A DNA stretch of 32,627 nucleotides from a virus: positions 1 to 32,627 of the IMG/VR virus record IMGVR_UViG_3300032291_001745; one strand, written 5' to 3'. Positions 4,601 through 28,457 of the stretch are shown in pieces (the stretch's first letter is position 1; each line of letters starts with the position of its first letter). A model generated the notes under the pieces. That model ran no database searches, was not told the origin of the DNA, and saw only the letters and a program-made list of their open reading frames with translations. The translations under genes were made by a program, and so were the position numbers.

Positions 4601-5125
4601 ATGACATTTATTCTTTATTTTTTAGGGTCCTTACTAGCCGGTATAATCCTTGGATATGTTTACCATTCTATTAAAATCAACGACAGAAAAAAACAATGTG
4701 CGACTTGGGAAGTTGGTGACGTAATTGTTGTAAAAAGGTATGAGGTTAGTAATGGACTGACTAAAGAACTCCAAAAAAACGGAAATTCAAGAACAGTTAA
4801 ATTATCAGGTTGGAATGAAGACAATGTCATGTTTGAACTTGGTGATAAGTGTTTTATTGAAGAATGGAAAAGTATTGATACAAACAAAAGTGACTATTGG
4901 AGAACCCAACACAATAAATGTAAGAACTTTATGGGAAAAAACCCTAGTTTCAATCCTATTGTAACGGACAAAGTCTCATTGTCATCTGATACCGACATGA
5001 TAGACGGACAACCAATTGAAACCTTGAATGAAATCATGTGTGAGATTTATTTAAAACAGGCCATTAGTCAAGAGAATTATGAGTTGGCCGATAAAATAAG
5101 AAAAAGAATGGAAAGGTTTAGATAA
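4601..5125 (+). CDS. Membrane-anchored protein with UVR-like C-terminal motif
   Basis: The 174-residue product has one N-terminal transmembrane helix (about residues 2-22), then a soluble domain with a VGDVIVVKRYEV strand region. The C-terminal helix AISQENYELADKIRKRMERF resembles the UVR motif of UvrB/UvrC and McsA, a short protein-interaction hairpin. It has its own promoter and runs straight into the remnant of the nucleotidyltransferase gene. Function unknown. The UVR likeness is a pattern judgement only. Confidence 0.6.
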   Translation: MTFILYFLGSLLAGIILGYVYHSIKINDRKKQCATWEVGDVIVVKRYEVSNGLTKELQKNGNSRTVKLSGWNEDNVMFELGDKCFIEEWKSIDTNKSDYWRTQHNKCKNFMGKNPSFNPIVTDKVSLSSDTDMIDGQPIETLNEIMCEIYLKQAISQENYELADKIRKRMERFR

Positions 5126-5126
5126 T

Positions 5127-5192
5127 ATGAAAGAATTTAAATTTTATGAAGTAGGTGGTTGCGTCAGAGACGAACTTCTTGGGTTGAATTAA
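5127..5192 (+). pseudogene. Severed 5' end of the tRNA nucleotidyltransferase gene
   Basis: This 21-codon ORF encodes MKEFKFYEVGGCVRDELLGL plus one Asn before TAA. It matches the N-terminus of the complete copy at 6134 (YLVGGSVRDEILGL), the nucleotide-binding GGxVRDxLLG motif of class II CCA-adding and poly(A) polymerases. Reading stops exactly after that motif, where the RHH/GIY-YIG cassette begins. The nucleotides differ at many third positions from the downstream copy, so it is not a recent duplicate. Confidence 0.85.
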
Positions 5193-5230
5193 AAAAATAC
5201 GATAAAAGTAGGATTTTTTAATTTTTAAAG

Positions 5231-5238
5231 TATTTATA
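5231..5238 (+). promoter_or_regulatory. TATTTATA element before the RHH gene
   Basis: TATTTATA lies 3 bp before the ATG at 5242, inside the mobile cassette. It is the same element as at 1656 and 10082, which also precede homing endonuclease genes. Confidence 0.4.
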
Positions 5239-5241
5239 TAT

Positions 5242-5415
5242 ATGAGAAGTAAATTAAATAATGATGAAAAAAAAATAAAAATTAGTGTAACTATTAATCC
5301 TGAATTAATTAAAATTCTAAATAAAAATTACAAAAATAAATCTAAATACATTGAAAAATTAATATATCGTGACTTATTTTCGAATAAACATATAAATGAT
5401 AATTTTCTGTTGTGA
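5242..5415 (+). CDS. Ribbon-helix-helix DNA-binding protein of the homing cassette
   Basis: This 57-residue protein has the CopG/Arc layout: a basic start, one beta strand (KIKISVTINPE), then two helices (LIKILNKNY and SKYIEKLIYRDLF). Such proteins bind DNA as dimers and often repress their own operon. Its TGA overlaps the GTG start of the endonuclease gene (GTGA), so translation is probably coupled. It may restrain nuclease expression or assist target binding. Both roles are inference. Confidence 0.6.
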   Translation: MRSKLNNDEKKIKISVTINPELIKILNKNYKNKSKYIEKLIYRDLFSNKHINDNFLL

Positions 5416-6158
5416 ATAAATTAAAAAATGATGATTTTTTTGGTAGATGTGAAAAGAAATTTGGTAAAAAATTTATATACCACAATGATTATAGTGGTAT
5501 GGACAAGCCAATTAAAATTACTTGTCCCATCCACGGGGATTTCCAAATATTATCTGAATATCATTGGCAAAGCAAGGATGGTGGTTGTTTAAAGTGTCAG
5601 AAAGATAAACATTTATTAAAGTATATTGATAACGGAAACATTTTTATTGAAAAATCGAAAGTAATACATAATAATAAATATGATTACAGTAAAACCAAAT
5701 ACGTTAATAATAACGTTAATGTGATAATAATATGTCCCGAACACGGGGAATTTGTTAAAAAACCGACTTGTCATTTAAATAGAGGTCAAGGATGCGTTGA
5801 ATGTAGTAAAAAAACTATGGGGGGTTATGGTGGATATAATCTTAAAAATGCTGAAAAATTTAAAGATAAATGGATAAATAAACGTGGCTTTATTTATTTT
5901 GTTATAATGAATAACGAACTTGAAAAGTTTGTTAAAATAGGTATAACCACCCAAAAAAACATACGAAGACGATTTTCAGGGTATAAATATGATGTTGAAG
6001 TATTTGATTTTATTGAAGATAATTTGTATAATCTTGTTTATAAAGAAAAAATAATTTTAGAAAAATTTAAAGAATTTAAATATAAACCAAAACAACACTT
6101 TAGTGGATACCAAGAATGTTTTAATTTAAAAATATGCGAAAATATAAAGAATATTTAG
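5412..6158 (+). CDS. GIY-YIG (T5orf172-like) homing endonuclease with zinc-finger repeats
   Basis: The 248-residue protein starts at GTG 5412. The first half has two copies of a Cys/His module, CPIHGDF...C..C and CPEHGEF...H....GC.EC (around 38-62 and 110-133), typical DNA-binding zinc modules of phage homing proteins. The C-terminal third (GFIYFVIMNNELEKFVKIGIT, then RRRFSGYKYDV, then Glu) fits the GIY-YIG/T5orf172 nuclease fold. It ends in TAG, which is rare here. The stop lies inside the rebuilt nucleotidyltransferase start. Confidence 0.8.
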   Translation: MNKLKNDDFFGRCEKKFGKKFIYHNDYSGMDKPIKITCPIHGDFQILSEYHWQSKDGGCLKCQKDKHLLKYIDNGNIFIEKSKVIHNNKYDYSKTKYVNNNVNVIIICPEHGEFVKKPTCHLNRGQGCVECSKKTMGGYGGYNLKNAEKFKDKWINKRGFIYFVIMNNELEKFVKIGITTQKNIRRRFSGYKYDVEVFDFIEDNLYNLVYKEKIILEKFKEFKYKPKQHFSGYQECFNLKICENIKNI

Positions 6159-6865
6159 TGGGGGGTTCAGTTAGAGACGAAATATTAGGTCTACCGAGAA
6201 AAGATTTAGATTATGTATTTGTCTTTGAAAATTTTGATGAAAACCAAACCGTTTCTGATTGTTTTAATGATATGTATCAAATTATACAAGAAAGAGGTGA
6301 AATATTTTTATCTACACCAAGTTGTTATACTATTAGATATAAAGATAAAAAAACCAAAGAAGTTAAAGATGTGGTGATGGCTCGAAAAGAGGTTGGGTAT
6401 ATTCCCAACACAAGACAACCGATGATTGTTCCTGGTACATTGAGAGACGATTTGATTCGTAGGGATTTTACCTTAAACGCATTGGCAAAAGACGAAGATG
6501 GTAATATCATTGACATGTTTGATGGTATGTGGGCTTTGGAGAACAAAATTCTTATGACACCACAAACCGCATGGACAACCATGTTGGATGACCCATTAAG
6601 GCTGGTTAGGGCTTTTAGATTCTCAATCACCAAAGGATTTGACATCTCACCAAGAATATGGGAGACCTGTCACGTGGATGAAATTGTGGACAAACTCGAA
6701 CAGGTTGTTTCACAGGAAAGAATTAGAGATGAGGTTTTCAAGATGATGAAACATGACACCTTGAAAACTTTGGATTTGTTTGAAAAAATTAAATATACCA
6801 ACCCAAGGATATTGGAAATTATGTTTGGTCGTGGTATGTGGTTAAAACCAACAACTGAATTATAA
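6134..6865 (+). CDS. cca: tRNA nucleotidyltransferase / poly(A) polymerase family protein
   Basis: Class II CCA-adding enzymes build or repair the CCA end of tRNA from CTP and ATP. Seen here are GGSVRDEILGL (nucleotide motif), KDLDYVF with the catalytic DxD pair, RRDFTLNALA and DDPLRLVRAFRF. At 243 residues it covers the head and neck but lacks the longer C-terminal body or HD domain of bacterial enzymes. The start overlaps the homing endonuclease end by 25 bp and re-creates the N-terminus severed at 5127. Context supports tRNA maintenance: the suppressor tRNA at 8878 lacks an encoded CCA. Poly(A) polymerase activity cannot be excluded. Confidence 0.85.
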   Translation: MRKYKEYLVGGSVRDEILGLPRKDLDYVFVFENFDENQTVSDCFNDMYQIIQERGEIFLSTPSCYTIRYKDKKTKEVKDVVMARKEVGYIPNTRQPMIVPGTLRDDLIRRDFTLNALAKDEDGNIIDMFDGMWALENKILMTPQTAWTTMLDDPLRLVRAFRFSITKGFDISPRIWETCHVDEIVDKLEQVVSQERIRDEVFKMMKHDTLKTLDLFEKIKYTNPRILEIMFGRGMWLKPTTEL

Positions 6866-8800: not shown

Positions 8801-8874
8801 GGTCAGGTGGCCGAGTACTTAGGCGTGGGTCCGCAAGACCCTCTACGGTAGTGGAAATCTATCCCTGACCTCCA
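8801..8874 (+). tRNA. tRNA-Cys-like gene (anticodon GCA) with atypical loops
   Basis: The cloverleaf spacing is exact: acceptor GGTCAGG/CCTGACC, a 15-nt D arm, a 17-nt anticodon arm with loop CCGCAAG (8831-8837), a 4-nt variable region, a T arm GGTAG/CTATC (one G-U pair), T at the discriminator position and encoded CCA. Anticodon GCA and U73 are both hallmarks of tRNA-Cys. Oddities are C instead of T at position 33, a T-T mismatch at 27-43, no GG in the D loop, and T loop TGGAAAT instead of TTCGAAT. It may be degenerate or a divergent functional tRNA. Confidence 0.6.
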
Positions 8875-8877
8875 AAT

Positions 8878-8950
8878 GGCTCTGTGGTGTAGTGGTTAAC
8901 ACAACATTCTCTAAAAGTGCTAGTCACGGGTTCGAATCCCGTCAGGGCCA
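8878..8950 (+). tRNA. Amber suppressor tRNA (anticodon CTA)
   Basis: The acceptor GGCTCTG/CAGGGCC (one G-U pair), D arm GTGT/ACAC with the GG-containing loop AGTGGTTA, anticodon loop CTCTAAA (8909-8915), 5-nt variable region, T arm ACGGG/CCCGT with canonical loop TTCGAAT and A73 make a sound tRNA. The anticodon is CTA at 8911-8913, which reads UAG. CCA is not encoded, so it needs a nucleotidyltransferase such as the one at 6134. The D arm (GGTGTAGTGGTTAACAC) resembles tRNA-Gln, so glutamine is the likely charge; this is inference. Confidence 0.9.
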
Positions 8951-8952
8951 CT

Positions 8953-9372
8953 ATGAATACCTTTAATGAGGATAAGGCCGGAAAGGCCGCCCATAAATGG
9001 GTTTTTGATAAAAACTCTCATAAGCGGTCAAACAACGACAACACCGCAGGTGATAATTATGGTTCATTTATTGCTGGTGCCAGATGGCAATCCAAACGAA
9101 TGTACACCCAAGAGGAGGTTGAAAAACTATTGGATGTCCAAAGAGGTAATTGTTATGTTGCGGTCTATAATAAAACATTAGATATTGAAATGGCATCACT
9201 TGCTAGTGGTGCCCCCGAACCTTGGAGTTGGAGGAAAAAAGGTAAAAAGGTTAAAAGTGGTCTCAATAAAAATATTGGTGTTGACCCAAGAATGATTAGA
9301 GATGTACCACCTCCTCCTGAAGATAGAATTATCAAAGAAGGTAAAACACCAAAACCACCCAAAAAGAAATAA
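8953..9372 (+). CDS. Unknown phage protein with proline/lysine-rich tail
   Basis: The ATG lies 2 bp after the suppressor tRNA; an apparent upstream extension runs through the tRNA and is rejected. The 139-residue product has an N-terminal helical segment with GARWQSKRMYTQEEVEKLL, seen in many small phage proteins, and a low-complexity tail (PPPPEDR, TPKPPKKK). Function unknown. It begins a run with the two paralogs downstream. Confidence 0.6.
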   Translation: MNTFNEDKAGKAAHKWVFDKNSHKRSNNDNTAGDNYGSFIAGARWQSKRMYTQEEVEKLLDVQRGNCYVAVYNKTLDIEMASLASGAPEPWSWRKKGKKVKSGLNKNIGVDPRMIRDVPPPPEDRIIKEGKTPKPPKKK

Positions 9373-9373
9373 G

Positions 9374-9736
9374 ATGACTAAAGAAAGATACAATCAGATT
9401 GTTAATGAGGTTTATAAGAATTATCTTGGAAAATATAAACAAGATAAAACCCCTGGTATTGTTTATTATACTGACCCCCTACAATTTAGACCTTATACGG
9501 AAGAAGAATTCACCAACAGAATCAAAACCGATAATGAATTCTCTGAAAGATGGGGATTGAAGATTGAAGAACGAGAGTTGAGTTTGGATGAAAGGAAACA
9601 AATCTTCGATGACAGAGGTTATGTTTGTGATGTATGGCCTTTTAATGGTGATTGGCATGGTGAATATGATGGGTTTAGAATACCACGCAGAGCAATCTCT
9701 TTAACATACTATAACGAAACAATTGAAATAAGATGA
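9374..9736 (+). CDS. Unknown protein, first of two tandem paralogs
   Basis: The 120-residue product starts at ATG 9374, just after the previous stop; the upstream in-frame extension overlaps that gene. It shares MTKERYNQIV, GLKIEERELSL, ISLTYYNETIE and overall layout with the next gene. The middle differs (YTDPLQFRPYTEEEF here). Mostly charged helices with a C-terminal strand. No known family. Confidence 0.6.
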   Translation: MTKERYNQIVNEVYKNYLGKYKQDKTPGIVYYTDPLQFRPYTEEEFTNRIKTDNEFSERWGLKIEERELSLDERKQIFDDRGYVCDVWPFNGDWHGEYDGFRIPRRAISLTYYNETIEIR

Positions 9737-10074
9737 CTAAAGAAAGATACAATCAGATTGTTGATGAGGTCTATGAGAATTTTCTAATGATTAGTAAAAA
9801 GATGGTAAGTAAAGATGAAAATACACCAAAAGAAGAATTCATCAACAAAATTCAAACAGATGAAAGATTCTCTAAATATTGGGGATTGAAAATCGAAGAA
9901 CGAGAGTTGAGTTTAGAAGAAAGATATAAATTAGTCAACATTATTAGTAAAGAAAAATTACCAGGAGAACCTTCCTACACAGAAGAACAGCAACACTCTA
10001 TGTTAGATGAACTAACGCCTAAAAGAGTAATCTCTTTAACATACTATAACGAAACAATTGAAGTGTTTTTATAA
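9733..10074 (+). CDS. Unknown protein, second tandem paralog
   Basis: The start overlaps the previous stop (ATGA), implying coupled translation. The 113 residues match the preceding gene at both ends (MTKERYNQIVDEVYENF, YWGLKIEERELSLEER, VISLTYYNETIE). The central segment has diverged, which suggests selection holds the ends. Function unknown. Confidence 0.6.
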   Translation: MTKERYNQIVDEVYENFLMISKKMVSKDENTPKEEFINKIQTDERFSKYWGLKIEERELSLEERYKLVNIISKEKLPGEPSYTEEQQHSMLDELTPKRVISLTYYNETIEVFL

Positions 10075-10081
10075 TGTTAGA

Positions 10082-10089
10082 TATTTATA
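10082..10089 (+). promoter_or_regulatory. TATTTATA element before the GIY-YIG gene
   Basis: TATTTATA lies 13 bp before the ATG at 10103. A TATAAATA in the spacer makes the region nearly palindromic. Confidence 0.4.
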
Positions 10090-10102
10090 ATATATAAATA
10101 TT

Positions 10103-10870
10103 ATGAAAGGATACATTTATAAAATAACATCACCGACAGGTAAAACGTATATTGGGAAAACAGTAAACATTGATAAAAGAAAAATGTACTATGCTTATGG
10201 ACATTGTAAATCTCAAAAAATACTATGTTCATCTATAAAAAAATACGGTTGGAATAAACATAAATTTGAAATTATAAAAGAGGTTAATAATATTTCCGAA
10301 CTCAATCAAACTGAGATAGAATTAATTTTAGAATGTAAAACTAATTTATTGAGATACCCGGAAAATAATGGGATGAATCTATCAGATGGAGGTGAAGGTA
10401 ATAGTGGTCCTAAGTCAGATGAATGGAAGAGTAAAATGAAAGAAAAATGGGACTCAGTGGAGTATAGAGAAAAAATGGAAAAAATATATAAATCTCAAGA
10501 GTGGATTGAGAAGTGTAGAGATAGACAATTAGGTAAAAAACATTCAGAAGAAACAAAACAAAAGATGAGAGGACCAATAACTGATGAACATAAAGAAAAA
10601 CTAAAAAAACCAAAGACAAAGAGAACTAAAGAACACTGTTCAAATTTATCAAAGGCAAATAAGGGTAGAAAATTAAGTGATGGGCATAAAAAAACGATAA
10701 AAGAAAGACAATCCAAATCAGTAATTCAGACTACTCTAACAGGTGAATTTGTAAAAGAGTGGGAATCAATCAAACAAGCGGAAAACACTCTCAATATACA
10801 TAACGTAGGAAGAGTGTGTAACAGAAAACAGAATAGTTCAGGTGGATTTAAATGGAAATTTAAGAATTAG
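10103..10870 (+). CDS. GIY-YIG homing endonuclease with NUMOD modules
   Basis: The 255-residue nuclease opens with GYIYKITSPTGKTYIGKT, the GIY-YIG core, followed by the expected Arg region (NIDKRKMYY) and the NGMNLSDGGEGNSGP segment. DNA-binding NUMOD3-type repeats follow (GKKHSEETKQKM, GRKLSDGHKKTI). The C-terminal IENR/NUMOD1-like unit ends SSGGFKWKF. It stops with TAG, rare in this window. If that TAG were suppressed, translation would run in frame into the small Cys-rich ORF at 10892. It sits between genes, so no gene is visibly interrupted. Confidence 0.93.
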   Translation: MKGYIYKITSPTGKTYIGKTVNIDKRKMYYAYGHCKSQKILCSSIKKYGWNKHKFEIIKEVNNISELNQTEIELILECKTNLLRYPENNGMNLSDGGEGNSGPKSDEWKSKMKEKWDSVEYREKMEKIYKSQEWIEKCRDRQLGKKHSEETKQKMRGPITDEHKEKLKKPKTKRTKEHCSNLSKANKGRKLSDGHKKTIKERQSKSVIQTTLTGEFVKEWESIKQAENTLNIHNVGRVCNRKQNSSGGFKWKFKN

Positions 10871-21725: not shown

Positions 21726-22382
21726 ATGGATAAATCTGATGTAATTTTCGATTTAATTAATTTTAATATTGAGGGTGTTGATGTATATCATCACAACGGT
21801 TCCTTGTGGCTAATATTCACAGATAATAAAAAATGGATAATTGAATTAACTAAAGACGGTACCTTATGGTATAATCATTATTTTTTCACCAATTGTTTTA
21901 AATATTTATCGTTAGATGTTATTCATAATCAACACTATATTACCAAATGGGTTGAAAATGTCATACAAAATGGGGTGATAAACACCAATCATCCCCAATG
22001 GTGCTTTACCTGGTCGGTTGAAAATGTCATACAAAATGGGGTGATAAACACCATTTCCGCAGAATTGGTAGCGCCACTGGAAGTTGAAAATGTCATACAA
22101 AATGGGGTGATAAACACCCCCAAACACACGTCACAACAATTTAATTCTGTTGAAAATGTCATACAAAATGGGGTGATAAACACCATCCTTGTTGTATGCG
22201 GTGGTTTGTCCCATGTTGAAAATGTCATACAAAATGGGGTGATAAACACCACTGTAGGTGTTTCCAACCACACAACTAACGTTGAAAATGTCATACAAAA
22301 TGGGGTGATAAACACCATCGCACATGGGTTGATGTCCGCGAACACCGTTGAACATGTCTTACAAAATGGGGTGAAATTGTGA
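21726..22382 (+). CDS. CRISPR-like in-frame repeat protein, copy 1
   Basis: The 218-residue product has an N-terminal domain of about 75 residues (starting MDKSDVIFDLINFNIEGVDV, with WLIFTDNKKW and GTLWYN) and then seven 22-residue units. Each unit is the constant VENVIQNGVINT plus ten variable residues; the last is degenerate (VEHVLQNGVKL) and ends in TGA. The DNA of the constant part is identical in six units. The N-terminal domain differs from copy 2 mostly at synonymous sites or by mild changes, evidence for selection on a protein. Function unknown. Confidence 0.75.
   Translation: MDKSDVIFDLINFNIEGVDVYHHNGSLWLIFTDNKKWIIELTKDGTLWYNHYFFTNCFKYLSLDVIHNQHYITKWVENVIQNGVINTNHPQWCFTWSVENVIQNGVINTISAELVAPLEVENVIQNGVINTPKHTSQQFNSVENVIQNGVINTILVVCGGLSHVENVIQNGVINTTVGVSNHTTNVENVIQNGVINTIAHGLMSANTVEHVLQNGVKL
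21951..22382 (+). repeat. CRISPR-like array 1 (36-bp repeats, 30-bp spacers) inside a coding frame
   Basis: Repeats begin at 21951, 22017, 22083, 22149, 22215 and 22281, all identical over 36 bp, starting GTTGAAAATGTCATAC and ending GGTGATAAACACC; a degenerate seventh is at 22347. The end can form a GGTG/CACC hairpin with an ATAAA loop. The six 30-bp spacers share no sequence and are roughly half G+C by hand count, against an AT-rich genome. The 66-bp period keeps the reading frame and no spacer adds a stop. No cas gene lies in the window. Confidence 0.8.
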
Positions 22383-22446
22383 TAGATGTTGGTGTTTATT
22401 AATTTAAAAGTTTGATAATAAAGTTTTTAATTGTTATTTTTAAATA

Positions 22447-23688
22447 ATGGACAATTCTGAAGTAATTTTCGATTTAATTAATTTTAATATTGAGGGTGTT
22501 GATGTATATCATCACAACGGTTCCTTGTGGTTAATATTTACTGATGATAAAAAATGGGTAATCGAATTAACTAAAGACGGTACCTTATGGTATAATTATT
22601 ATTTTTTCACCAATTGTTTTAAATATTTGTCATTAGATGTCGTTAATAATCAACACTATATTACCAAATGGGTTGAAAATGTCATACAAAATGGGGTGAT
22701 AAACACCAAAACTTTTAAGCGCATGCACGCCAGACTGGTTGAAAATGTCATACAAAATGGGGTGATAAACACCCACTACCACTGGGACCTTGAATCGACA
22801 ATCGTTGAAAATGTCATACAAAATGGGGTGATAAACACCGGAATGCCGATGGGGGCGCTAGTCGCATCTGTTGAAAATGTCATACAAAATGGGGTGATAA
22901 ACACCTCGTTCCCCCTGAGCCACTCACACTCACACGTTGAAAATGTCATACAAAATGGGGTGATAAACACCATCGCACATGGGTTGATTTCCGCGAACAC
23001 CGTTGAAAACGTCATACAAAATGGGGTGACAAACACCATGTCGGCACGATTGGTTGCTGCCAAAATGGTTGAAAATGTCATACAAAATGGGGTGACAAAC
23101 ACTAAATGTGGTTCGATTAATGATGAACAACGTGCTGAAAATGTCATACAAAATGGAATAAGAAACACCATCCGACAGGATATTACTCAATTAAGTGAAG
23201 TTGAAGATGTGATTCAAAATGGGGTTAAAGAGGTTACAGCAGGAAAGACAGAAAGATTAACAATGATTAATGAGACCATTCAAAATGGGGTTAAGGAAAT
23301 CAAAACAAATGACAGTTACCGTAATTATTTCAAACAAAATAATAAAACAGAAAAGGTAATTGAAAATGGTGTGAAAATTATTAAACCTGCTTTTAAATAC
23401 GTATGCAACCCAATTAATTTTGAAATAATAAAACAAGAAGAAACGAGATATTGTACTGTTAAAGATGTTGTTGATTTTGGTGTTAAAAAAACCTTACCGG
23501 ATAACTTATTTGACACATCTGTTGTTGAATACAACATTGAAAATGGTATTAACGAAGTTATACCATTACCGGCACAAGATGGTAATCGAGATTGGGGTGT
23601 GTATTATCAAAGACAAGGGGATGTCCTAAAACCACATGTAAAATATGTTGACGATGCAATTAATTTAGGAATTAAGAAGACTATATAA
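22447..23688 (+). CDS. CRISPR-like in-frame repeat protein, copy 2
   Basis: The 413-residue paralog of the gene at 21726 has the same N-terminal domain (MDNSEVIFDLINFNIEGVDV) and 10 regular 22-residue units, then units that are longer and diverged. Constant parts drift from VENVIQNGVINT to VENVIQNGVTNT, VEDVIQNGVKEV, TEKVIENGVKII, VKDVVDFGVKKT and VEYNIENGINEV, keeping the pattern V-x-x-V-I-x-N/F-G-V-K. A non-repeat C-terminal tail follows. The repeat core is thus an old protein fold, with new DNA-identical units at its N-terminal side. Confidence 0.75.
   Translation: MDNSEVIFDLINFNIEGVDVYHHNGSLWLIFTDDKKWVIELTKDGTLWYNYYFFTNCFKYLSLDVVNNQHYITKWVENVIQNGVINTKTFKRMHARLVENVIQNGVINTHYHWDLESTIVENVIQNGVINTGMPMGALVASVENVIQNGVINTSFPLSHSHSHVENVIQNGVINTIAHGLISANTVENVIQNGVTNTMSARLVAAKMVENVIQNGVTNTKCGSINDEQRAENVIQNGIRNTIRQDITQLSEVEDVIQNGVKEVTAGKTERLTMINETIQNGVKEIKTNDSYRNYFKQNNKTEKVIENGVKIIKPAFKYVCNPINFEIIKQEETRYCTVKDVVDFGVKKTLPDNLFDTSVVEYNIENGINEVIPLPAQDGNRDWGVYYQRQGDVLKPHVKYVDDAINLGIKKTI
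22672..23301 (+). repeat. CRISPR-like array 2 (36-bp repeats, 30-bp spacers) inside a coding frame
   Basis: Perfect 36-bp repeats, identical to array 1, begin at 22672, 22738, 22804, 22870 and 22936. Those at 23002, 23068 and 23134 carry a few changes, and those at 23200 and 23266 many. Spacers are 30 bp throughout. The spacer at 22972-23001 differs from the array 1 spacer at 22317-22346 by one base; all others are private. The spacer at 22840 is the most G+C-rich (19 of 30). Confidence 0.8.
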
Positions 23689-26484: not shown

Positions 26485-26504
26485 ATGATTTTTTTAGAAA
26501 TCAT
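26485..26504. terminator. Possible bidirectional terminator between convergent genes
   Basis: The 7-bp stem ATGATTT/AAATCAT with a short loop lies between genes ending at 26440 (plus) and 26501 (minus). AT-rich and weak. Confidence 0.35.
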
Positions 26505-27172
26505 ATTAAAATAACGCCACCCACATTAACCATTTTTCTTATTTCTTCTTCTGAATATTTTTTGGATAATGGTGTATCACGTAAATCCAAATTACCATCA
26601 ACGGTGCGAAGATTTCCAAGGGATTCGATATTGGAATCTTGTAAATCCAACCATCCACCAACGGAGCGAAGGTTTCCAAGGTTTTTAATGTCAGAACCTG
26701 ATAAATCCAACCCACCACCAACGGAGCGAAGATTTCCAAGGGATTTGATATTGGTTTCACGTAAATCCAACCTACCACCAACGGAGCGAAGGTTTCCGAG
26801 GGATTCGATTTTGGATGATGATAAACCTAAATCACCACCAACGGTTTGAAGGTTTCCAAGGGATTTGATTTTGGTCCCATATAAATCCAACCAACCACCA
26901 ACGGTTTGAAGGTTTCCGAGGGATTTAATTTCGGAATATGCTAAAAACAAATTACCACCAACGGATTGAAGGTTTCCAAGGGATTCGATTTCGACATATC
27001 GTAAATTCAAATCACCACCAATTGTATATAGAGGATTACCTTCGGATTCCATATATTCTTGCAAAAAATTCCAATCATTATTAAAATATTTTAACGATGG
27101 AATATGAAGAACCTCAGGTTCTTCCTGTTCAATCAATCTTCTGTATTGTGATTCAGTTATTATTATTTTCAT
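26501..27172 (-). CDS. LRR-like repeat protein, copy 1 (last in operon)
   Basis: The 223-residue product has the leader MKIIITESQYRRLIEQEE, a short domain (HIPSLKYFNNDWNFLQEYM), and then about seven 20-residue LRR-like units (ESLGNLQSVGGNLFL type) forming a probable solenoid. The end SKKYSEEEIRKMVNVGG is shared by all copies. Its start overlaps the upstream copy's stop (TAATG). The leader holds L-I-E, a prohead-protease-like site. A binding or decoration role is inferred. Confidence 0.7.
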   Translation of the reverse strand: MKIIITESQYRRLIEQEEPEVLHIPSLKYFNNDWNFLQEYMESEGNPLYTIGGDLNLRYVEIESLGNLQSVGGNLFLAYSEIKSLGNLQTVGGWLDLYGTKIKSLGNLQTVGGDLGLSSSKIESLGNLRSVGGRLDLRETNIKSLGNLRSVGGGLDLSGSDIKNLGNLRSVGGWLDLQDSNIESLGNLRTVDGNLDLRDTPLSKKYSEEEIRKMVNVGGVILI

Positions 27173-27846
27173 TACATATAAATATTACCACCAACCTGAA
27201 CCATTTGTCTTATTTCTTGCTCTGAATATTTTTTAGATATCTGTGTATCACGTAAAAACAAATCACCACCAACGGAGTGAAGGTTTCCAAGAGATTCGAT
27301 TTTGGTTCCTTCTAAAAACAAATTACCACCAACGGAGTGAAGGTTTCCAAGGGATTCGATATTGGATTCATATAAATTCAAATCACCACCAACGGAGTGA
27401 AGGTTTCCAAGGGATTTGATTTTGGTTTCATATAAACCCAAATCACCACCAACGGAGTGAAGGTTTCCAAAGGATTTGATTTTGGTTCCATGTAAATTCA
27501 AACCACCACCAACGGAGCGAAGGTCTCCAAGGGATTCGATATTAGTTCCATATAAATTCAAATAATTACCAACAGATTGAAGATTCCCTAAAGATTCGAT
27601 TTTGGTTTTATATAAACTCAAATAACCACCAACGGATAGGAGATTTCCAAGGGATTTGATATTGGTTCCTCGTAAATTCAAATCACCACCAATGGTATAA
27701 GGTGGATTTCCTTCGGATTCCAGATATTCTTGCAGAAAATTCCAATCATCATTAAAATATTTTAACGATGGAATATGAATAACATCCAAGCGTTCTTCCT
27801 GTTCAATTAATCTTTTATATTGTGATTCAGTTATTATTATTTTCAT
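27172..27846 (-). CDS. LRR-like repeat protein, copy 2
   Basis: The 224-residue paralog has the same leader (MKIIITESQYKRLIEQEE), linker, seven to eight LRR-like units and C-terminal cap (KKYSEQEIRQMVQVGG then NIYM). The NIYM codons read AATATTTATATG and double as the TATTTATA element for the next gene. Confidence 0.7.
   Translation of the reverse strand: MKIIITESQYKRLIEQEERLDVIHIPSLKYFNDDWNFLQEYLESEGNPPYTIGGDLNLRGTNIKSLGNLLSVGGYLSLYKTKIESLGNLQSVGNYLNLYGTNIESLGDLRSVGGGLNLHGTKIKSFGNLHSVGGDLGLYETKIKSLGNLHSVGGDLNLYESNIESLGNLHSVGGNLFLEGTKIESLGNLHSVGGDLFLRDTQISKKYSEQEIRQMVQVGGNIYM
27177..27184 (-). promoter_or_regulatory. TATTTATA element (minus strand) inside the end of LRR copy 2
   Basis: TATAAATA on the plus strand, i.e. 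TATTTATA on the minus strand, lies 4 bp before the ATG of LRR copy 1 and overlaps the upstream NIYM codons. Confidence 0.4.
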
Positions 27847-28457
27847 TACATATAAATATTACTACCAACATTAACCATTTGTCTTATTTCTTCTTTGGAA
27901 TATTTTTCGGATATTGGTGTATTACGTAAATCCAACCAACCACCAACGGTTTGAAGGTTTCCGAGGGATTCGACATTGGTTCCTCGTAAATCCAAACTAC
28001 CACCAACGGATTGGAGGTTTCCAAGAAATTCGATTTTGACTCTATGTAAACTCAAATTACCACCAACGGATGTTAAATTTCCAAGGGATTGGATTTTGGT
28101 ACCATATAAACTCAAATAACCGCCAACGGATTGAAGGTTTCCAAGGGATTCAATATTGGTGTTATATAAATTCAAATAACCACCAACGGATTGGAGGTTT
28201 CCAAGGGATTCGATTTTGGTATTAAATAAATCCAAATAACCACCAACGGATGTTAAATTTCCAAGGGATTGGATTTCGGTTCGTCGTAAATCCAAATTAT
28301 CATCAATTGTATATGGAGGATTTCCTTCAGATTCCAAATATTCTTGCAAAGAATTCCAATCATTATTAAAATATTTTAACGATGGAATATGGAGAACTTC
28401 CGGTTCTTCCTGTTCAATCAATCTTCTATATTGTGATTCAGTTATTATTATTTTCAT
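27846..28457 (-). CDS. LRR-like repeat protein, copy 3 (first intact in operon)
   Basis: The 203-residue paralog with the leader MKIIITESQYRRLIEQEE has about six LRR-like units (SLGNLQSVGGYLNLYNTNI type) and the same cap (EKYSKEEIRQMVNVG). Upstream lies the stump of a fourth copy carrying the same stop/start junction. Confidence 0.7.
   Translation of the reverse strand: MKIIITESQYRRLIEQEEPEVLHIPSLKYFNNDWNSLQEYLESEGNPPYTIDDNLDLRRTEIQSLGNLTSVGGYLDLFNTKIESLGNLQSVGGYLNLYNTNIESLGNLQSVGGYLSLYGTKIQSLGNLTSVGGNLSLHRVKIEFLGNLQSVGGSLDLRGTNVESLGNLQTVGGWLDLRNTPISEKYSKEEIRQMVNVGSNIYM
27851..27858 (-). promoter_or_regulatory. TATTTATA element (minus strand) inside the end of LRR copy 3
   Basis: Same arrangement as at 27177, before the ATG of LRR copy 2. 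Confidence 0.4.

Follow-up and report, generated by a model that had tools for sequence, protein, structure and literature searches.

As a rule, free-standing homing nucleases occupy intergenic positions, and the place where they cut is not recorded in the sequence. A different arrangement is known from fungal mitochondria, where mobile ORFs (mORFs) replace the ends of genes: passages of one report describe this for atp6, atp9, cox2 and nad3 of Glomus and for atp6 of Allomyces (PMC3630166). The locus that we describe here belongs to a viral sequence record that is 32,627 bases long; the whole record was analysed and is referred to below as the window. It resembles the mORFs, as those passages portray them (PMC3630166), in that a gene has been interrupted by an endonuclease ORF and made whole again with a gene end of foreign origin, the original end surviving beyond the ORF; in both settings trees separate native from foreign ends. 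There are also clear differences from what the same passages describe. In the mORFs it is the 3′ end, and hence the C-terminus, that is replaced, whereas in the window it is the 5′ end together with the start codon. The fungal nucleases are mitochondrial LAGLIDADG enzymes (with one GIY-YIG), whereas the window has a phage DUF723/T5orf172 nuclease accompanied by a small ribbon-helix-helix (RHH)-like ORF. Some of the fungal hybrids are in phase with the nuclease, whereas the new start in the window overlaps it out of frame. Thus, the window has the foreign end at a nuclease ORF and the abandoned native end of an mORF hybrid, but neither its C-terminal position nor its mitochondrial setting.

Three descriptions of phage systems are also pertinent, each as far as the passages that bear on this subject go. 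Free-standing T5orf172/DUF723 homing endonucleases carry the same domain pair, sit beside conserved genes and occur at boundaries of phage exchange; that account concerns neighbourhoods, islands of homing endonuclease genes (HEGs) and domain swaps, whereas in the window the target gene has left a relic and acquired a different start (Barth et al. 2023, PMC10448857). Insertions of the mobE/mobA type, which split nrdA and other genes, likewise place a free-standing nuclease where it interrupts a functionally critical part of a phage gene; the genes described there stay split and act as two polypeptides, whereas a complete gene is restored in the window (PMC2988022). Finally, in the asymmetric co-conversion described for T4, donor sequence replaces the recipient's flank on one side of the cut, as it would here; the difference is that the other side in the window apparently had no homology and would have been left with a scar (PMC2988022). 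In a literature search that covered titles and the opening parts of abstracts, with subscription journals thinly represented, we found no description of a phage gene whose 5′ end had been replaced by nuclease insertion. Nuclease-borne replacement of gene ends is already known from fungal mitochondria, and its 5′-end version in a phage appears to be new; the phenomenon would thereby extend to phages, at the opposite end of the gene.

A split and rebuilt tRNA nucleotidyltransferase gene

The features of the locus are collected in Table 1; all key loci are metagenome contigs. The stop of the resident upstream gene runs into the old start of the tRNA nucleotidyltransferase (NT) gene, an arrangement shared with the relative L001. 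The reading frame of the relic, 5127-5192, is MKEFKFYEVGGCVRDELLGLN and closes with a TAA at 5190-5192. In a sensitive profile search the relic matches the NT profile (E 2.4e-6), and it is 95% identical over 20 aa to the N-terminus of the cassette-free L001. A preliminary description of this DNA had counted 21 codons left upstream; 20 codons and two further bases are indeed native NT, whereas the last base of codon 21, like the TAA that follows, is derived from the insert. At the other end of the cassette, the complete NT begins inside the nuclease end, as that description had it: the start codon lies 25 nt within the 3′ end of the nuclease ORF, and the overlap is out of frame. The encoded protein scores above the Pfam cut-off for PolyA_pol and matches PHROG tRNA nucleotidyltransferases.

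Table 1. Features of the window and of comparable loci in other contigs
Locus	Position	Strand	Feature	Remarks
Window	4601..5125	+	Resident upstream gene (UvrB/C-motif protein)	L001 homologue 63% aa, same junction AGATAATATG
Window	5127..5188	+	Relic of resident NT, 20 codons + 2 bases	Ends in conserved GGCVRDELLGL motif
Window	5189..6131	+	Inserted cassette, 23% GC	Left end set by two genomes (window, L309)
Window	5242..5415	+	Small ribbon-helix-helix-like ORF, 57 aa	70% identical homologue in L309
Window	5412..6158	+	DUF723 + T5orf172 (GIY-YIG family) endonuclease, 248 aa	
Window	6134..6865	+	Complete rebuilt NT gene, 243 aa	
Window	6134..6392	+	Rebuilt NT, foreign L161-like 5′ part	Includes new start codon, within nuclease ORF
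Window	6393..6408	+	Putative right-hand crossover interval	Codons of conserved MARKEVGYIP stretch
Window	6409..6865	+	Rebuilt NT, resident L001-like remainder	
L097			Same-strand relic, nuclease and restarted gene: FEN-like exonuclease	Relic ends LLIDGNS
L120			Same-strand relic, nuclease and restarted gene: nicotinate phosphoribosyltransferase (NAPRTase)	
L197			Same-strand relic, nuclease and restarted gene: thioredoxin	Relic ends shortly after WC of WCxxC
L250			Same-strand relic, nuclease and restarted gene: weakly DUF559-like	
L151 (reverse complement)	9260-10563		GIY-YIG/NUMOD nuclease with restarted HAD gene	HAD relic ISVFDLDGTLK, then stop, upstream; restarted gene overlaps nuclease end by 26 nt

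Among 80 viral loci with NT relatives, L001 is the closest to the window (78% aa). Its DNA matches positions 4796-5188 without a break (82%; the E value of 8e-108 is far beyond chance), and matches again at 6374-6865 (89%); between these two flanks there are 196 bp in L001 versus 1185 bp in the window. In the junction alignment, identity with L001 runs through the upstream gene and the relic as far as TTGAA, after which the window continues with the insert and its TAA stop. L001 therefore joins both flanks, and is the element-free allele of the insertion site that one would look for if, as the preliminary description proposed, a homing-type cassette had split the NT gene and its start had been rebuilt at the nuclease end. 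That proposal is borne out by the relic, by L001 and by the complete NT that runs from 6134.

The rebuilt gene is itself a mosaic. Querying with residues 1-80 of the rebuilt NT, we found four loci (L161-L164) whose sequences around NT are mutually identical, which match the query at 76% aa and which carry no cassette. Diagnostic sites along the rebuilt gene agree with L161 as far as about 6392 and, from about 6408 onwards, with L001; that is, an L161-like allele (the donor type in the account given below) has replaced the sequence flanking the insert. We also built separate trees of the N-terminal and C-terminal parts of NT, each from an alignment with 66 rows. The N-terminal tree groups the window with L161 (support 100) and rejects a window plus L001 grouping (AU p 0.02, 86 columns); the C-terminal tree groups the window with L001 (support 98) and rejects a window plus L161 grouping (p 2.4e-5). 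These results bear on a further claim of the preliminary description, namely, that the new start is a synonymously recoded copy of the old one. Over 20 aligned codons the two starts share only 65% of their amino acids and 65% of their DNA, and a different codon is used at 6 of the 13 identical residues. Since the start of the rebuilt NT groups with L161 and the rest with L001, the first ~85 codons are, as judged from the trees, a diverged foreign allele from another phage lineage, and the idea of synonymous recoding has to be given up.

A separate observation concerns the same gene family: at L136:7517-10272 a full-length NT gene of the bacterial type appears to be divided in two, an opposite-strand ORF separating the parts, which is a different kind of interruption.

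The cassette and its second copy

The nuclease gene starts with a GTG and overlaps the stop of the small ORF by 4 nt. The encoded protein matches Pfam DUF723 with 27.8 bits (cut-off 20.9) and T5orf172 with 22.8 bits (cut-off 20), so that PF10544 and PF05265 are both above their gathering cut-offs, and it matches the PHROG endonuclease family phrog_681 (E 2e-40). By these Pfam and PHROG matches the protein has a catalytic domain of the GIY-YIG family with a DNA-binding zinc-finger region. An alignment, inspected by eye, indicates that an Arg (in IRRRF) and a Glu (in YKEKI) are conserved in three relatives that span the domain; an Arg and a Glu are given as the catalytic residues of GIY-YIG enzymes in the relevant passages of PMC2988022. 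A fold search with the predicted model of the nuclease returned no match to solved folds at E 0.001.

The small ORF has no Pfam or PHROG match. Sub-threshold matches to RHH families were obtained for three of the four relatives scanned, and the predicted model consists of two helices (helix-helix; mean pLDDT 74). Nucleases in L105, L113 and L134 are likewise immediately preceded by similar small ORFs. The preliminary description had assigned RHH and GIY-YIG genes to the cassette: the second label is secure by the Pfam cut-offs, and the first is weaker. The GC content of the cassette is equally low in none of the 634 same-size sliding windows of the record.

A scan with the small ORF yielded one relative, L309. 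Its DNA matches positions 5189-5554 (78%), with homology setting in precisely at the scar (5189), the point at which the NT relic stops. On its left side, the L309 cassette is flanked by the end of a different gene, with no NT relic. The neighbouring sequences of L309 match L077, L048, L061 and L161; in L077, the neighbour that is shared with L309 sits directly before NT. The L309 contig stops inside the nuclease, before any NT, and it is for this reason that we infer, rather than observe, a donor in which the cassette is directly upstream of NT. A second copy of the cassette is nevertheless seen directly in an L161-like genome, and the cassette is thus a mobile unit. Nuclease relatives in a scan of genome contigs were all distant; a further viral scan contained no second complete cassette copy, its yield being one 42% relative and more distant ones.

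The window also contains two further homing-type nucleases, one at 1677-2459 (LAGLIDADG-like by eye, with a PHROG endonuclease match, located after a PRPP synthetase gene) and one at 10103-10870 (GIY-YIG/NUMOD-like). Neither of these two has a duplicated gene end in its flanks.

A one-sided repair model

We consider it probable that this locus arose through a cut by a homing nuclease followed by one-sided repair, with the start of the donor's NT imported alongside the cassette. The small RHH-like ORF and the DUF723/T5orf172 nuclease would together constitute a free-standing homing element, situated just upstream of NT, and overlapping it, in an L161/L309-like phage. During a mixed infection, the nuclease would cut NT of an L001-like phage in its 5′ part, at about codon 21; this places the predicted break among the conserved GGxVRD...LLGL codons, close to 5188. 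Repair would then use the donor as template, with only one homologous flank. To the right of the break both phages have NT and would recombine within it, at 6393-6408, and because of this the donor's NT start (~85 codons) would be carried in. On the left, the donor would bring no homologous flank; because no sequence is shared, the element would be joined at or near the break, with the 20-codon relic staying behind as a scar. The outcome would be a full-length, chimeric NT gene that is physically linked to the nuclease. Such a linkage may have consequences: with the new start of a useful gene placed inside its coding sequence, the nuclease would be hard to lose.

Cutting at the codon-21 site, one-sided repair, co-transfer in a single event and insensitivity of the new start to the nuclease are the steps that we infer from sequence comparison; the donor and recipient phages are represented in this model by relatives and not by the parents themselves. 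Several observations count against it: L161 itself has no cassette, the cassette of L309 follows another gene, and the N-terminal AU test (p 0.02) covers 86 columns; the unmatched fold of the nuclease model and, as described below, the unscarred loci of isolated phages and the frequent overlaps at unscarred genes are further points of this kind.

The cassette and the foreign NT start might instead have been acquired separately, such that the cassette first broke NT and ordinary recombination with an L161-like phage later supplied the new 5′ end. Mosaic NT genes can arise without nucleases, and L161 demonstrates that the donor allele exists without the cassette. However, no gap separates the foreign tract from the nuclease end, the new ATG falls within the nuclease ORF, and the same L161-like lineage that gave the NT start also contains the second cassette copy. 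Since the cassette copy and the NT start both trace to one lineage, two independent imports are the less parsimonious account, and we regard it as unlikely.

Similar scars at other nucleases

We compared the ends of genes that abut DUF723-type nucleases with the flank across the nuclease, using a score threshold of 46. This stricter screen replaced a raw tblastx duplication screen (22/114 nuclease ORFs versus 32/400 control ORFs), in which most hits were nuclease self-repeats and non-coding repeats. Before cleaning, 13 of 193 nuclease centres and 13 of 524 control centres reached the threshold (p 0.009). Post hoc cleaning by eye left 11/192 nuclease centres, the window itself included, versus 5/524 controls (p 0.0005): L202 (tandem paralogues) and L186 (same contig as L120) were removed from the nuclease side, and eight cases of tandem paralogues or repeat proteins from the control side. 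Scores in the mismatched-pair null were at most 42, apart from four values above 170.

The arrangement of relic, nuclease and restarted gene on the same strand recurs at the loci listed in Table 1. One of these, L151, in which the nuclease splits a HAD phosphatase gene at its DxDGT motif, arose among the five cleaned controls, and its family names were assigned by eye. Several targets are split inside active-site motifs, namely, GGxVRD (NT), VDGNS (FEN-like exonuclease), WCxxC (thioredoxin) and DxDGT (HAD phosphatase). In L102 the scar is on the opposite strand; over 45 residues its relic and restart do not differ at all, yet 24 of the codons do, and the closest cassette-free relatives are nearer to the relic (92-93% DNA) than to the restart (79-80%). 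As proof of selected recoding L102 is weak: the restart differs synonymously from its relative L262 at 25 of 45 codons, and a later stretch of the same gene at 22 of 45. The mirror case, a replaced 3′ end, was seen at L229, L116, L232, L205 and L138 in the stricter screen, and also at L128. Some relics at these other loci are short (10-15 residues) and individually weak, and no scar was present at the 10 nuclease loci examined in isolated phages. We had also considered an overlap between the nuclease and the next start as a hallmark of such scars; this was rejected because 48/105 unscarred next genes overlap as well (by at least 5 nt), so the feature is not specific to scarred loci.

From a relic ending at the break one could read both the target gene and the position of the cut, in the window and in about ten other contigs. 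We raise, tentatively, the possibility that DUF723-type phage nucleases are a broad class that replaces gene starts (and also ends) by cutting active-site codons near the ends of conserved genes, by carrying, in overlap with the nuclease, an uncuttable copy of that end, and by leaving short relics that record the cut sites. If that were true, nuclease specificities could be read from genome scars.

The recurrence of this anatomy could be taken to favour a different process, a transposing module in which the nuclease and an immune 5′ end of the target gene are always carried together, in the manner of the fungal mitochondrial mORFs with their foreign C-termini. The repeated restarts that overlap the nuclease end (five same-strand DUF723 cases and L151) are in keeping with such a module, as is the protein-level identity in L102 in spite of its codon differences. 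On the other hand, the L309 copy adjoins a different gene and has no NT relic, and most nuclease loci are without a relic (180/193 centres are below the score cut-off); we consider an obligate module to be quite improbable.

A tandem duplication of NT, or an assembly chimera, with the nuclease lying between the copies by chance, is very unlikely indeed. The window is a single contig, which leaves some room for such an error, but its two switches are clean and biologically plausible in position, its gene body is orthologous to that of L001, and the same anatomy is found again in unrelated contigs. Moreover, a sensitive profile search of the 84 other NT loci (L001-L080 and L161-L164) detected no second NT N-terminal fragment, the window alone having one; among these relatives, none has both fragments without the cassette, which accords with the split posited in the preliminary description. 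Least credible of all is an intron, intein or split gene whose NT pieces are joined by splicing of RNA or protein: insertion into a conserved motif is generally typical of such elements, but the downstream NT is a whole gene that has a start codon of its own, the relic is closed by a stop, no Rfam intron matches at gathering (the best sub-threshold E is 3.7 or worse), and the locus has neither the ribozyme or protein-splicing element nor the two retained exons of a group I/II intron or an intein, so that proof of splicing, which would have conflicted with the original proposal, is absent from these searches. The cut with one-sided repair is therefore the reading that we retain as probable.

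Other features of the window

At 21726-23688 there are two ORFs that share a 281-nt lead (93% identical), each with a CRISPR-like array. In these arrays a 36-nt repeat, GTTGAAAATGTCATACAAAATGGGGTGATAAACACC, recurs every 66 nt with different 30-nt spacers, and its in-frame reading is VENVIQNGVINT; the later repeats are decayed, with the protein pattern kept. A local comparison of 12 array spacers with the compared loci gave no match longer than 17 bases among the matches listed. At 8801-8951, a tRNA-Cys is followed by a tRNA with a CUA anticodon, which ARAGORN names tRNA-Pyl and which is possibly an amber suppressor. Finally, the minus strand at 26501-28457 contains three tandem paralogues that have a repeated SLGNLQSVGG motif, each of them starting with MKIIITESQY.
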